This document shows, in pieces, positions 49,601 through 62,130 of a stretch of 64,000 nt of DNA. The position numbers and the translations under genes are program-made. Origin of the DNA: Armatimonadota bacterium (GTDB lineage Bacteria > Armatimonadota > Zipacnadia > Zipacnadales > JABUFB01); NCBI GenBank assembly GCA_013314775.1, contig JABUFB010000011.1, positions 259,144 to 323,143 on the forward strand. Reading direction: 5' to 3'. The stretch's first letter is position 1; every line of letters begins with the position of its first letter. The notes beneath the pieces were generated by a model that saw nothing but the letters and a program-made list of their open reading frames with translations, did no database searches and was not told the origin of the DNA.

Positions 49601-51049
49601 TCAGCGGACCATGAGCACGGTGCGCGCGGCTTCGATCAACATTTCCGGGAACAGGAAGAGCAGGAGTGTTCCTGCGGCCATGAAGACGATCACCGGCAAG
49701 ACGCCGACAGGAGCAGTACCCGGTCGTTCGCCCGGACGCTGGTCGAAATACATCAGCCGCGCGATATTCATGTAATAGTACAGCGAGATCACACTGTTTA
49801 CGATGCCAACCACCGCAAGCCAGGCCCACTGCCGCGACTTGATGGCTGCGGCGAATATGTAGAGCTTGCCCAGGAACCCGGCAGTAGGCGGGATGCCGGT
49901 CAACGAAAGCAGGAAGATAAAGGTCAGGATCGCCAGCGCAGGCGCGGTCTTGGCCAAGCCGGCGAAGCTCTCGATCGCAGCGTTACCCGTGTGCCGCTCC
50001 AGGGCAATCGCGACCGCAAACAGCCCGAGGTTCATGAACAGATAAGCAGCCAGATAGATAAGCAGGCCGGGCATTCCCCACAGCTCATCCGGGCCCACGA
50101 CCACCGCGATCAGCATGTACCCCGCATGGGCGATGCTGGAGTAAGCCAGCATGCGCTTGATGTCGGTCTGGCGGATTGCGAGAAGATTGCCCACAAACAT
50201 CGTCAGGCAGGCGAGCACCGCGATGATCATCTGCCAAGGCAACTCGAAGCCCGGAGAGAGGGTAAACAACACTCGCGTGAGCACAGCGAGACCCCCGGCC
50301 TTCGGCGCCACCGAGAACAGCGCGGTCACCGGTGTGGGAGAGCCCTCGTAGACATCTGGCGCCCAGGCGTGGAAGGGAACCATGCTGACCTTGTAGCCAA
50401 ATCCCACCAGCATGAGCACCAGGCCAAGCGCCGCGGGTAACGCAAGCCCGGCGCCCGGAACGGGCTTCATCATGCTGCCGGCCGCCACGAGCAGGTTCGT
50501 GGAACCTCCCGCCGCATACACGAGCGTCATCCCGTACAGCATGACCCCACTGGCCGCCGCGCCATAGATGAAATACTTCATCCCCGCTTCATTGGACTTC
50601 GGGTCCTTCTTATTCCAGGCGGCGAGCAGGTATGATGTCAGACTGACCAACTCGAAGCTCAGGTAGATCAGAACCAGGTCGGTGGCACCGGCAAGCAGAC
50701 TCACTCCCAACACCAGGAACACGACCAGGGAGAAGAACTCGCCATACGCCGGGCTTCGGCGGAAGAAGTCCACCGACAGGACGATGATGATCGCCCCGGC
50801 GAGCATCGCGAAGGCCTTGATGAAAAGGGACAGGCCATCAATGGCGAAGCTGCCGTGGAACTCGGTGGACGGCGCGCCTCCCCACAGGTCGAGCACGGGC
50901 TTCAGGCAGACCAGAAGACCCACCGCTGCCAGGACCGGCACCGCGGCGCGGCGTCTTGCCGGCAGAATCAGGTCCGCGCACAAGACGAGTATGCCCAGTA
51001 CGCAGAGCCAGATTTCCGGCGCGAAGGATTGGAGGTTAGTGTATGGCAT
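49601..51049 (-). CDS. nuoN: NADH-quinone oxidoreductase subunit N
   Basis: Antiporter-like proton-pumping subunit of complex I, 482 residues, about 14 transmembrane helices. The conserved proton-channel region VGFGYKVSMVPFHAWAPDVYEGSPTP and RQTDIKRMLAYSSIAHAGYM (each read in parts) identify it. It starts 24 nt after nuoM. The C-terminal helix ends at MVR, and rex begins 34 nt beyond. Confidence 0.96.
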   Translation of the reverse strand: MPYTNLQSFAPEIWLCVLGILVLCADLILPARRRAAVPVLAAVGLLVCLKPVLDLWGGAPSTEFHGSFAIDGLSLFIKAFAMLAGAIIIVLSVDFFRRSPAYGEFFSLVVFLVLGVSLLAGATDLVLIYLSFELVSLTSYLLAAWNKKDPKSNEAGMKYFIYGAAASGVMLYGMTLVYAAGGSTNLLVAAGSMMKPVPGAGLALPAALGLVLMLVGFGYKVSMVPFHAWAPDVYEGSPTPVTALFSVAPKAGGLAVLTRVLFTLSPGFELPWQMIIAVLACLTMFVGNLLAIRQTDIKRMLAYSSIAHAGYMLIAVVVGPDELWGMPGLLIYLAAYLFMNLGLFAVAIALERHTGNAAIESFAGLAKTAPALAILTFIFLLSLTGIPPTAGFLGKLYIFAAAIKSRQWAWLAVVGIVNSVISLYYYMNIARLMYFDQRPGERPGTAPVGVLPVIVFMAAGTLLLFLFPEMLIEAARTVLMVR

Positions 51050-55323: not shown

Positions 55324-55964
55324 TCGCCCTCGCCCCCCTCAACCGGGTCGCTGCGCTTCTCGTCATCCGGATCGCGGCGAGCAATCACAACAGACCCGAT
55401 CAACGCCACCAGCAGCACCACCGACGCCACCTCGAAAGGCAGCAGGTAGGCGTCCAGAAACATCTCGCCGATGCGCTGGACGTCGGTGCCTAACCCTCGC
55501 CCGGGCAGCTCAGGCCGCAGGGGCTTCCACTGGTGGAACCACGCGGCTTCGGCAAGAGCGGCGACGGTGACCACGAATAACCCACCTGCGGCGAGTACTC
55601 CGGCGATCACGTGCTGCATCCCGCTGTAGTAGTACAGGACCACGTTGGTCTGCGGCTCGTACTTCACCGGCAGGCGTTTGGATATCCACCGCGGTAGACG
55701 GTCGCGTGCCGCCGTGTCTTCCATGAGCATGACGCCGAACAGGATCAGCACCGCGATGGCCCCGGCGTAGACCAGGATCTGCAGCGCGAACAGCACGTGA
55801 GCGCCCATGAGCGCGAAAGCCCCGGCAACACCGAACAGCGTGGGCAGCAGCCACAAGGCGGCATGCATCACCCTTCGGGCCAGGATCACACCCAGCGCGC
55901 AGCCCAGCGTGAACAGGGCCACCAGCAGGAACCCCAATTGTTCGAGCCAGTCGTTTGCGGTCAT
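55320..55964 (-). CDS. nuoJ: NADH-quinone oxidoreductase subunit J
   Basis: Membrane subunit of 214 residues with about five helices. The pi-bulge helix region ALQILVYAGAIAVLILFGVMLM is characteristic. The loop between helices 3 and 4 is about 60 residues and longer than in E. coli. Its ATG overlaps the nuoI stop (ATGA). The C-terminal tail is charged (RRDPDDEKRSDPVEGGEGE). Confidence 0.95.
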   Translation of the reverse strand: MTANDWLEQLGFLLVALFTLGCALGVILARRVMHAALWLLPTLFGVAGAFALMGAHVLFALQILVYAGAIAVLILFGVMLMEDTAARDRLPRWISKRLPVKYEPQTNVVLYYYSGMQHVIAGVLAAGGLFVVTVAALAEAAWFHQWKPLRPELPGRGLGTDVQRIGEMFLDAYLLPFEVASVVLLVALIGSVVIARRDPDDEKRSDPVEGGEGE

Positions 55965-56515
55965 TGCGGCTCCGTCCCGGCTTCAGATCCGGCGATCTCC
56001 GGCCGGCACACAGTCTGCACGCGCTGCACGTCCTCGAACTCAAGGCCGCGCGCGGTCAAGGTGTCCAGGTCGCGGATCAGCGCGCGCGGGTCGTACTCGG
56101 ACTGCTCATAGTCGGTGGTCATCGTGATGGCGTCGAAGGGACACGCCTCTACGCACAGGTGACAGAACATGCACAGGCCGATGTCGATGTAGAACTCGGT
56201 CGGCTTGCGCTCCTTGCCCTTGCCCTCGCCCACGATGTGGATGCACTTGTCCGGACAGACGCGCACGCAACTCATGCAGGCGGTGCACCGTAGCTGGCCG
56301 GTTTCGCGGTCGGTGATCAGCGCGAAATCCCCGCGATACCCGGGCCGCGGCTTGTAGTCCTCCGCCGGGTTCCGGTGCGGGTACTGAACGGTAACCTTGG
56401 GCCGCCAGAAGGTGATCAGCGTCACCCACAGGCCCTTGAGGATGCTCAGGGCCGTGCCGGCGATCTCAGCGGCCAGTCCGATCCGCGCAGGTTGTGAGTT
56501 CTCAGGTCGCGTCAT
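55961..56515 (-). CDS. nuoI: NADH-quinone oxidoreductase subunit I
   Basis: Ferredoxin-like subunit with clusters N6a and N6b, 184 residues. The two motifs CTACMSCVRVCP and CMFCHLCVEACP each give CxxCxxCxxxCP. YRGDFALITDRETG precedes the first motif as usual. Electrons for this subunit normally come from NuoG, which is absent from this operon. It follows the hicA gene by 57 nt rather than nuoH. Confidence 0.97.
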   Translation of the reverse strand: MTRPENSQPARIGLAAEIAGTALSILKGLWVTLITFWRPKVTVQYPHRNPAEDYKPRPGYRGDFALITDRETGQLRCTACMSCVRVCPDKCIHIVGEGKGKERKPTEFYIDIGLCMFCHLCVEACPFDAITMTTDYEQSEYDPRALIRDLDTLTARGLEFEDVQRVQTVCRPEIAGSEAGTEPQ

Positions 56516-56572: not shown

Positions 56573-56803
56573 TCAGTTCAGCAACTCGCAGAACTGTTCA
56601 ACGGTCAGACCGGACTGCCGGATGATACTGCGCAAGGTGCCCGGCTTCAGGTCTTTGCCGCCGTGTACCGGGACGGGCACCACTCTGCCATTCTCCGGGT
56701 GCTGCATGATTCTGTGCTCGCCCGTCTGCCGTCGTACGACGTAGCCGGGCCGCAAAAGCGCCTTCACCGTGTCCTCCCCCGAGACTACCGGCAGCTTAGG
56801 CAA
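56573..56803 (-). CDS. hicA: HicA-family mRNA interferase toxin
   Basis: Small dsRBD-like toxin of 76 residues. The N-terminus MPKLPVVSGEDTVKALLRPGYVVRRQ and the catalytic His in TGEHRIM match HicA; VPVHGGKDLKPGTLRSIIRQSGLTVEQF is the family C-terminus (read in parts). I place the start at TTG 56803, which overlaps the hicB stop by 8 nt and has GAGG 9 nt upstream. Longer frames lose the family N-terminus. It is encoded inside the complex I operon, between nuoH and nuoI, behind its antitoxin. Confidence 0.9.
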   Translation of the reverse strand: MPKLPVVSGEDTVKALLRPGYVVRRQTGEHRIMQHPENGRVVPVPVHGGKDLKPGTLRSIIRQSGLTVEQFCELLN

Positions 56804-57065
56804 CCGCCTTCGCCTCGGTGACCGTGCCCTTGCGGACAATTGCCTGCAACACGCCCGCAACATCGATGGTGAAGGACTCGGCGTCCGGCGGGATGGGCTT
56901 CCCATCCTCCTGCAGCAGAGCGAGAAATCCTTCGATCATGTCACGCGCCATGTACAGGGCTTCCTCGACGTCGTCGCCCTGGGTGGTTGCGTCCAGAGCC
57001 GGGACGTAGACGGAGAAGCCGCCGTCCTCCTCACGCAGCAGAACCACTGTATAGGTGCGCTCCAT
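56796..57065 (-). CDS. hicB: HicB-family antitoxin
   Basis: Antitoxin of 89 residues with the partially degraded RNase H fold typical of HicB: YTVVLLREEDGGFSVYVPALDATTQGDDVEEALYMARDMIEGFL (in parts). There is no obvious C-terminal DNA-binding domain, so autoregulation would need another route. AGGAGG lies 8 nt before the ATG at 57065; an ATG at 57071 is the alternative. It starts 41 nt after nuoH ends, and overlaps hicA. Confidence 0.9.
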   Translation of the reverse strand: MERTYTVVLLREEDGGFSVYVPALDATTQGDDVEEALYMARDMIEGFLALLQEDGKPIPPDAESFTIDVAGVLQAIVRKGTVTEAKAVA

Positions 57066-57106
57066 CCTCATGGCCTCCTCGACACCGGCACTCGGGCTCG
57101 CCGATC

Positions 57107-58198
57107 TTACGCCCCCGGGATCAGGGCCACGCAGGCGGTGGTGATCGCAAGCGCCACGAACCCCGCGGGCACCATGAACTTCCACGACAGCGACATCATC
57201 TGGTCAGGGCGCATACGCGGCAGTGTCCAGCGCACCCACAGCACGAAGAAGATGAGCAGAGCGGCCTTCGCAAACAGCCAGACGATGCCCGGGATGATGG
57301 TGTCCGCCGGGCCGAAGGGCGAGAGCCAGCCGCCCAGGAACACCACGGCCACGACCACCGAGATCAGCAGGATATTGGCGTACTCGCCCAGGAAAAACAG
57401 GGCGAACTTCATGCCCGAATATTCCGTATGGTAGCCTGCCACAAGCTCGCTCTCGGCTTCGGGCAGGTCGAAAGGCTGCCTGGCCACTTCCGCGAACATG
57501 GCGATGATGAAAAGGAGCGCCGGCAGCCACAGCCACGGCCGGAAGATATTCCAGGCGATGATCCCGGCGCTCTGGCGATTCACGATCTCTCCGAAACTCA
57601 GAGACTCCGACACCAGCACCACGCACAGCAGCGACAGCAGTAGCGGGATCTCGTAACTGAGCATCTGCGCGCCCGCACGGACCGCGCCGATGAGCGACCA
57701 CTTGTTGTTCGAACCCCACCCGCCCATGAGCATAGCGATGACCGTGATGCCGCTGACGCCCAGCAGGTACAGGACACCCACGTTCTGGTCCAGCACCGCT
57801 GCCACGACCACGTCCTTGTCCCACGGAATGACCGCCCATGCCATGAGCGAGACGGTGAAGAACAGCACCGGCGCGATGGCGTGGAGGATCTTGTCCGCCC
57901 CGATGGGCACGATGTCCTCTTTCAGCAGGAGCTTGATCGCGTCCATGGGCGTCTGGAACAGGCCGATCGGGCCGACGCGGGTGGGCCCCACGCGCGCCTG
58001 AATGTACCCGGCCACCTTGCGTTCGAGATACACCAGCACCAGGGCAGCGAACATCATGACGGCGATAGCGAAGACGGCTCCGGCGCACCAGGCCAGAATC
58101 TCAACCAGCAGGCGCGCCCAGTCCTCGGGCATGCCCCACGAGGTGAGCAGACCGTTGAGCCACTCGTTGATTGCGGTCAGGATTGATCGGAGCATCAT
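57107..58198 (-). CDS. nuoH: NADH-quinone oxidoreductase subunit H
   Basis: Quinone-site membrane subunit of 363 residues. Motifs YLERKVAGYIQARVGPTRVGP, GLFQTPMDAIKLLLKED, EIPLLLSLLCVV and RQPFDLPEAESELVAGYHTEYSG (in parts) are all conserved. It is flanked on both sides by genes that are not complex I subunits: the HEPN/BolA-like pair upstream and hicBA downstream. Confidence 0.97.
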   Translation of the reverse strand: MMLRSILTAINEWLNGLLTSWGMPEDWARLLVEILAWCAGAVFAIAVMMFAALVLVYLERKVAGYIQARVGPTRVGPIGLFQTPMDAIKLLLKEDIVPIGADKILHAIAPVLFFTVSLMAWAVIPWDKDVVVAAVLDQNVGVLYLLGVSGITVIAMLMGGWGSNNKWSLIGAVRAGAQMLSYEIPLLLSLLCVVLVSESLSFGEIVNRQSAGIIAWNIFRPWLWLPALLFIIAMFAEVARQPFDLPEAESELVAGYHTEYSGMKFALFFLGEYANILLISVVVAVVFLGGWLSPFGPADTIIPGIVWLFAKAALLIFFVLWVRWTLPRMRPDQMMSLSWKFMVPAGFVALAITTACVALIPGA

Positions 58199-58241: not shown

Positions 58242-58505
58242 TTAGGGGAGTTCATCTGTGCCAAACGCAAGTACGAAAGCGACGTCCTGAGCGTCCGTCC
58301 CAAGCCCGTCGCGCAGCAGTTTCCACACCATTTCCTGTTTCTCGCGCTCGGAAAGACCGTTGAACTGTTTCGAGACGATCTTCACATGCGCCCTTCCCAT
58401 GTAGCCTTCCGACACATCGATAGTGTCAGTCGGGAAACTCGCCCTGAGTACGCTCTCGACACGCGGGCCCAAGCCTGCGAAGTCGACCTTCCTGCCCCCT
58501 GCCAT
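58242..58505 (-). CDS. small BolA-like protein next to a HEPN gene
   Basis: Protein of 87 residues. By eye the core resembles the BolA/IbaG fold: RVESVLRASFPTDTIDVSE, then AHVKIVSKQFNGLSEREKQEMVW, then a late VAFVLAFGTDELP that parallels the BolA HALSLKTLTPEE ending. GAGGTG lies about 6 nt before the ATG. It follows the HEPN gene by 32 nt. It may be the antitoxin or partner of the HEPN protein; no nucleotidyltransferase (MNT) motif is present. Assignment to BolA is tentative. Confidence 0.6.
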   Translation of the reverse strand: MAGGRKVDFAGLGPRVESVLRASFPTDTIDVSEGYMGRAHVKIVSKQFNGLSEREKQEMVWKLLRDGLGTDAQDVAFVLAFGTDELP

Positions 58506-58537: not shown

Positions 58538-59041
58538 TCACGTGCAGCGTTGGGTCTTCAGCCACTCATAGACCGTCTCAATGGCGTCAACGGTGTCAGT
58601 AGCGTAACCGTGGTCGGTGATGGGGTCCGGTCGATAGCGCAAGGATGGGCGCCATCGCTTCACGCACTTACCCCATGCCGCACGAAGGTCCAGATCATTC
58701 TGCATCCGATGTGGCAGGTCACATGCCCGGAGGAGCAGTTCGAGATCGTGGGATCGAGCACCCGAGAGGTCCGGTCCCTTGCCGCTCTTCTTGCGATACT
58801 CGAGCACCTGTGACCAAGTCTGAGTCTTTGTCTTGCGCACCGCGTCGGTTCGATCGATGATGTACGCTTTCAGCAGACACTCTACGGCGTAGCCAGCCAG
58901 GTAGACGGCCGCCACCAAGTGCCGGTAGTTGGCGTCGGAGCGGTTCGGCTCCCAAGCCGGTTGCTCCAGCAGTTCACGCGCATCCGACAATCTGCGGGGC
59001 GCTGCCTTGATCAACTCGGAGATGCCGTCATACTCGAGCAT
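58538..59041 (-). CDS. HEPN-domain protein, possible toxin
   Basis: Helical protein of 167 residues. YRHLVAAVYLAGYAVECLLKAYI is the hallmark HEPN helix. Possible Rx4-6H patterns occur (RSDANYRH and RACDLPH), but neither is clearly in the catalytic position, so RNase activity is uncertain. AGGAG lies 10 nt before the ATG at 59041; the frame continues upstream over nuoD without support. It begins 22 nt after nuoD and precedes the BolA-like gene. HEPN proteins often act in toxin-antitoxin or defence modules. Confidence 0.78.
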   Translation of the reverse strand: MLEYDGISELIKAAPRRLSDARELLEQPAWEPNRSDANYRHLVAAVYLAGYAVECLLKAYIIDRTDAVRKTKTQTWSQVLEYRKKSGKGPDLSGARSHDLELLLRACDLPHRMQNDLDLRAAWGKCVKRWRPSLRYRPDPITDHGYATDTVDAIETVYEWLKTQRCT

Positions 59042-60723: not shown

Positions 60724-61197
60724 TCAGCAGTGGGCCTTCTTACCGGTCATGCGCGCGATATCCACGCGAACCACGGTCACGCCATCTAGCGCTGGGTCGG
60801 GCACCGGCGCCATCCCCTGCACATACTGCGCAACGAGGATGTCCAGTGCGCGCTGCTTCTCCGCGCGATCCGTCACGAACTCAGCCGTGCCGAAAACCAG
60901 TGCGCTGCGGTATCGGAACCCAATCCCGCAGGGGTTTTCGGACGGCAGCAGTTCAACGTTCGCTTCGAACTCCACGCACACTCGTGGGTCGTGCTTCAGG
61001 GCCTCAAGCTTCCGGCCTTCCCCCGCGCTGTGCAGATAGAGACAACCGTCACCGAGACCGAAGGACATGGGCACGATGTAGGGCCCATCCTCGCAACACA
61101 TGCCAACCCGACAGACCTGGCTCGCCCGGATGATCTCCAGGATCTCGTCCGGGTCGATGATTTCCCGGTCGGCTCGGCGCATCTTCGGGTCAATCAC
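60724..61197 (-). CDS. NimA-like FMN-binding pyridoxamine oxidase-fold protein inside the nuo operon
   Basis: Split-barrel flavoprotein of 157 residues in the PNPOx/NimA group. Signatures: [63 protein letters not shown] (in parts) and a C-terminal [12 protein letters not shown]. The GTG at 61197 overlaps the nuoB stop by 8 nt and has AAGGG 7 nt upstream, so it is translated with nuoB. It probably binds FMN and reduces small molecules. Its place between nuoB and nuoC is not standard. Confidence 0.87.
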
Positions 61198-61765: not shown

Positions 61766-62130
61766 CGCAGATCCCCCTTCTTCCAGACATAGGCCAGCCC
61801 CACCAGCAGAATGGCCACGAAGATACCCATCTCCCCGGCAGGCAGAGCGCCCAGCATGTCGGGCTTGCTGAGTGCCTTGAACACGGTGGCCCAGGGAAAC
61901 AGGAAGATAGTCTCGATCTCGAAGATCACGAAGACGATGGCGATGACGTAATAGCGGACGAAAAACCGGCTCCACGCGGGCCCGATGGGCGGGATGCCGC
62001 ACTCGTACACCATCCGCTTCTCGTCATACTGATCCGCGGGGCGCAGGATCATAGCGAAAACGAGAGTGATCGCCGCGAAGACGAATCCCGCCACGAGGAA
62101 GACGGCTACAGGGCCGTAGATGAGTGCCAT
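61756..62130 (-). CDS. nuoA: NADH-quinone oxidoreductase subunit A
   Basis: Small three-helix membrane subunit, 124 residues from ATG 62130. The signature [40 protein letters not shown] (in parts) includes the ND3 Cys loop. The frame opens at 62205, but those residues are unlike the family. It is the first gene of the complex I operon, about 120 nt after the predicted start of transcription. Confidence 0.95.

Follow-up and report, generated by a model that had tools for sequence, protein, structure and literature searches.

A Class 2 HicBA module, most likely a passenger, in the nuoH–nuoI spacer of an Armatimonadota nuo operon

A HicBA toxin–antitoxin (TA) pair was found between nuoH and nuoI, inside the nuo (complex I) operon of the window, the whole 64-kb stretch of DNA analysed here. 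Judged from its sequence, the pair is an ordinary, intact Class 2 HicBA module in an unusual place. It is read here, with good confidence, as a passenger cassette that sits in the nuoH–nuoI spacer, is most likely transcribed with nuo and is no dedicated respiratory regulator. The reading is bounded by an insertion known from two genomes only and by purifying selection on hicB that is not significant when this gene is taken alone.

The nuo operon lies on the minus strand and runs from nuoA (near position 62130) to nuoN (at 49601), followed directly by a rex-like gene (PF06971, PF02629) and then by a polyprenyl synthase-like gene. No nuoE, nuoF or nuoG was seen within the 64-kb window. Positions 60724–61197, between nuoB and nuoC, hold a gene for a pyridoxamine 5'-phosphate oxidase-like protein (PF12900, E 2e-26), which is also present in the sister species described below. 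In the open reading frames of the window nuoH, hicB, hicA and nuoI are co-directional, with spacers of 35 nt between nuoH and hicB and of 57 nt between hicA and nuoI (Table 1). The original prediction of a HicBA pair at this junction was thus borne out by the reading frames and by the family matches of both proteins. So was the 8-nt overlap of the two genes: in the sequence of the junction, hicB ends in GTT GCC TAA and hicA begins with TTG CCT AAG, and the same overlap is found in 11 other hicBA modules across the phylum, the sister species included. The hicB gene as such was also confirmed, with one correction of its extent: instead of a start at 57065, the ATG 6 bases upstream, at 57071 and behind GAGGAGG, is the likelier one. 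The order hicB–hicA with overlapping genes is the layout of Class 2 HicBA, a type with a small HicB, no DNA-binding domain and a compact arrangement that, in the part of the survey by Gerdes (2024, PMC10865869) drawn on here, is the commonest bicistronic context of HicA.

Table 1. Coordinates of the hicBA module, its neighbours and the second cassette of the nuo operon (positions in the window).
Feature	Position	Strand	Description
nuoI	55961..56515	(-)	neighbour downstream of hicA; Fer4 ferredoxin-type domains and operon position
hicA	56573..56803	(-)	76-aa HicA toxin, TTG start, His retained
hicB/hicA overlap	56796..56803	(-)	8 nt (TTGCCTAA); shared by 11 other modules in the phylum
hicB	56796..57071	(-)	91-aa HicB antitoxin without DNA-binding domain
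nuoH	57107..58198	(-)	neighbour upstream of hicB; PF00146, E 2e-113
BolA-like small protein	58242..58505	(-)	second gene of HEPN cassette; profile matches BolA-family structures only
HEPN-like protein	58538..59041	(-)	first gene of second TA-like cassette, nuoD–nuoH gap; PF05168 weak, E 0.0015

HicA was matched to the Pfam family HicA_toxin (PF07927) with an E value of 2.2e-21 and 76 bits (cut-off, 27 bits) and to the Thermus structure 1whz with an E value of 5.5e-11; further PDB matches were 6g26 and 4c26. The length of the protein falls within the 60–85 aa expected of Class 2, and its TTG-PKLP start is conserved in the alignment with relatives. HicA had been described as full-length with its catalytic histidine, and this holds: the histidine is aligned with that of the GSH motif of relatives and of the GGH motif of 1whz. 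The motif, usually GSH, reads GEH in the source genome (G000) and GGH in the sister species. Close relatives were checked for a mutated HicA active site, which would have spoken against the original prediction, and none was found.

HicB alone scored 23.4 bits against PF15919, below the 27-bit Pfam cut-off, and this family was matched by 13/13 members of the HicB alignment (best, 3.6e-15). The profile built from the alignment was matched to solved HicB antitoxins (6g1c, E 1e-8; also 6g1n, 6u0i and 6hpb). As to the partial RNase H fold expected of a Class 2 HicB, the single-sequence model was too poor to be of use (pLDDT 65), and its top fold match, which was non-significant, was a HicB. The match of the protein is confined to the N-terminal part of HicB_lk, with no DNA-binding domain, as in Class 2, and classical autoregulation by HicB is unlikely for that reason. 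Absence of this domain is the normal state of HicB in Class 2 modules, for which the mode of transcription is left open (PMC11594946, and PMC10865869 in the part used here). The nuo-resident HicB proteins have lost one residue of the PALxGCxTxG motif; together with the GEH motif of HicA, this loss could mean an altered or weakened activity.

The coordinates of HicA and of the nuo genes were compared in 61 genomes up to the level of the phylum, among them one other species of the same genus (G001) and two genomes, G002 and G003, that represent the family's further genera in the set. G001, too, has an intact hicBA with the same 8-nt overlap at the nuoH–nuoI junction; between the two species NuoH is 98% identical, HicB 94% and HicA 85%. 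The junction is free of hicBA in G002 and G003, with nuoH–nuoI gaps of 61 and 50 nt, respectively, and no relative of this HicA was found anywhere in these two genomes. G000 and G001 are the only ones of the 61 genomes in which nuo genes flank HicA on both sides. One genome of the same class (G045) has a hicBA that is oriented divergently from nuoA, at a distance of about 600 nt from its start. The closest named organisms by NuoH, candidate division WS1 and Candidatus Zipacnadum, are 57–58% identical. Because hicBA is found at nuo in one genus and the gap is short in the other two, the distribution is most simply explained by an ancestral empty junction and a recent insertion. Flanking direct or inverted repeats that would mark the insertion were searched for, and short matches only were found.

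Substitutions were compared between G000 and G001. For hicA, dN/dS was 0.30 and purifying selection was significant (p 0.006); for hicB, dN/dS was 0.42, from 9 changes only, and was not significant (p 0.24). The dN of HicA (0.069) exceeded that of the neighbouring Nuo proteins (0.006 and 0.030). Synonymous divergence was lower in hicB (4/70 sites) than in nuoH (52/282 sites; p 0.01), which could reflect recombination or overlapping constraint. From the dN/dS values, the kept histidine and the changed motif residues, the nuo-resident HicBA is probably functional and changing slowly.

No sigma-70-like site was found between positions 55900 and 59200, with a search pattern that may differ from the phylum's own promoters. 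Two terminator-like sites were detected in this region, both within nuoH and in a number not above chance, and none between hicB and nuoI. No hairpin or terminator after hicA, and no fold of either spacer, was better than in shuffled sequences. Upstream of hicB, the part visibly shared by G000 and G001 is the ribosome-binding region only. Co-transcription of hicBA with complex I had been predicted from the co-directional genes, and it is plausible. It is the simplest reading, since hicBA is co-directional with nuo, its spacers are short, no promoter or terminator is visible and little is shared upstream; a HicB without a DNA-binding domain also fits expression from outside. An internal promoter may nevertheless lie within the 3' end of nuoH, as the phylum's own promoters may differ from the sigma-70 pattern.

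In the reading preferred here, an intact Class 2 HicBA would have entered the short nuoH–nuoI spacer in an ancestor of the genus and would be transcribed, most likely, from the nuo promoter(s). Translation would begin with hicB and pass to hicA by coupling at the 8-nt overlap, and it is proposed that the antitoxin is in this way made ahead of the toxin. The predicted activity of HicA is that of an RNase that cleaves mRNA, with HicB keeping it inactive, and the cassette may persist as a passenger through addiction, phage defence or both. That the pair could make loss of the operon costly, as the original prediction also suggested, is possible.

Two other readings were weighed. The pair could serve as a dedicated switch, as the original prediction suggested in tying growth arrest to respiratory state: a fall in nuo transcription would starve the cell of HicB, free HicA and arrest growth. 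Such a switch would be compatible with hicBA lying co-directionally within the operon, where no separating signals are visible, and with the gene directly downstream of nuoN, whose domains are those of the redox regulator Rex. However, the insertion is restricted to one genus among the genomes compared, being absent from both other genera of the family, and related cassettes adjoin many unrelated housekeeping genes (see below). Moreover, matches to a Rex-type operator (TTGTG-N8-CACAA, two mismatches or fewer) were fewer in the window than in shuffled sequences, and none lay upstream of nuoA. Finally, with toxin and antitoxin on one mRNA, the synthesis of both would fall together. The link to respiration is thus unsupported, and the switch is considered very unlikely. 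Decay, in which HicBA would no longer be functional and would be drifting, is somewhat less improbable and still doubtful. It would account for the faster evolution of HicA relative to the neighbouring Nuo proteins, the changed residue before the histidine and the lost HicB motif residue, and the toxin genes of three neighbouring nuoD–nuoH cassettes are broken. Against it, neither species has a broken frame in hicB or hicA, the overlap and the starts are kept, and hicA is under purifying selection with its histidine retained.

The nuoD–nuoH junction holds the HEPN-like and BolA-like genes in G000, an MNT/HepT pair in G001, both sets in G002 and nothing in G003. HepT is broken by an in-frame TAG stop in G001; in G002 only about 21 aa of it are left, and the HEPN reading frame is broken as well; in all, the toxin gene is broken in 3 of the 4 cassettes examined at this junction, and the partner genes (MNT, BolA-like) stay open where it is. 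A broken HEPN frame beside an open BolA-like gene in G002 is as expected if the HEPN-like protein is the toxin. The predicted model of the BolA-like protein matches BolA folds, and at about ten other loci a BolA-like gene accompanies a homologue of the HEPN-like gene. The pair, of which no description was found in the literature, may be an undescribed TA type. Its distribution is patchy (eight loci of relatives, and G002), with one example between purH and glyA; in PADLOC the HEPN-like protein gave a weak match only (PDC-M28A, E 0.0004). Other genes were seen in nuo gaps elsewhere: a DUF433 and DUF5615 (PIN-like) pair between nuoI and nuoJ in G037, a DUF2442 gene between nuoH and nuoI in an Ignavibacteriae contig, and 23S rRNA intervening-sequence-type proteins between nuoD and nuoH in two loci. 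Only a few TA genes were counted per genome (families HicA, MNT, PIN and ParE), and a rough estimate makes it unlikely that a single operon would receive three separate insertions by chance; the estimate is suggestive only, since the window was chosen for one insertion and the count covers these four families.

TA cassettes beside or between housekeeping genes are common in the phylum, and the nuo location looks like one of several passenger sites within such operons of the lineage. Two tandem hicBA copies are flanked by recA and a LigT/2'-5' RNA ligase gene, and further modules lie between the GTP cyclohydrolase II and lumazine synthase (ribH) genes, upstream of dnaX and downstream of the gene for an aspartyl-type tRNA synthetase (aspS), most with the same 8-nt overlap; in G000 itself an MNT/HepT pair has argG on one side and the gene of a PALP-family enzyme on the other. 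The upstream neighbour of the cassettes was co-directional in 27/30 cases, not clearly above the base rate of 21/27 in the window outside nuo, and no orientation bias is claimed. Location in an operon gives by itself no ground for reading a functional link to that operon. A wider proposal, that Class 2 HicBA without a DNA-binding domain and HEPN/BolA-like pairs are transcribed inside host housekeeping operons, with the nuo operon of this family as a repeated landing site, is put forward tentatively, the balance tipping somewhat against it.

No direct precedent for TA pairs within nuo or housekeeping operons was found in the literature. The module shares with Class 2 HicBA, in the part of Gerdes (2024, PMC10865869) used here, the order hicB before hicA, a HicB of 63–103 codons without a DNA-binding domain, a HicA of 60–85 aa and overlapping genes; it differs in its place between nuoH and nuoI, cassettes in housekeeping operons being undiscussed in that part. 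There, the HicB of the most common hicBA operons lacks this domain, and how they are transcribed is left open. A passenger cassette on host operon promoters would be a testable answer to how such modules are transcribed, and an intact insertion in an operon that is well understood, and of which relatives have the empty site, offers a simple test case for borrowed host promoters. Thermus HicA (1whz) and the HicB-like TTHA1756 (2yzt) share the HicA family, the GGH motif and a small HicB-like partner family; they are from another phylum and were compared by protein. In mazEF-rsbUVW-sigB of Staphylococcus aureus, transcriptional read-through links a type II TA pair to a chromosomal operon (PMC4885055). 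The arrangement is alike in this transcriptional coupling, which for hicBA we infer from sequence; in contrast, mazEF comes first and has its own promoter, whereas hicBA is internal with no promoter visible.
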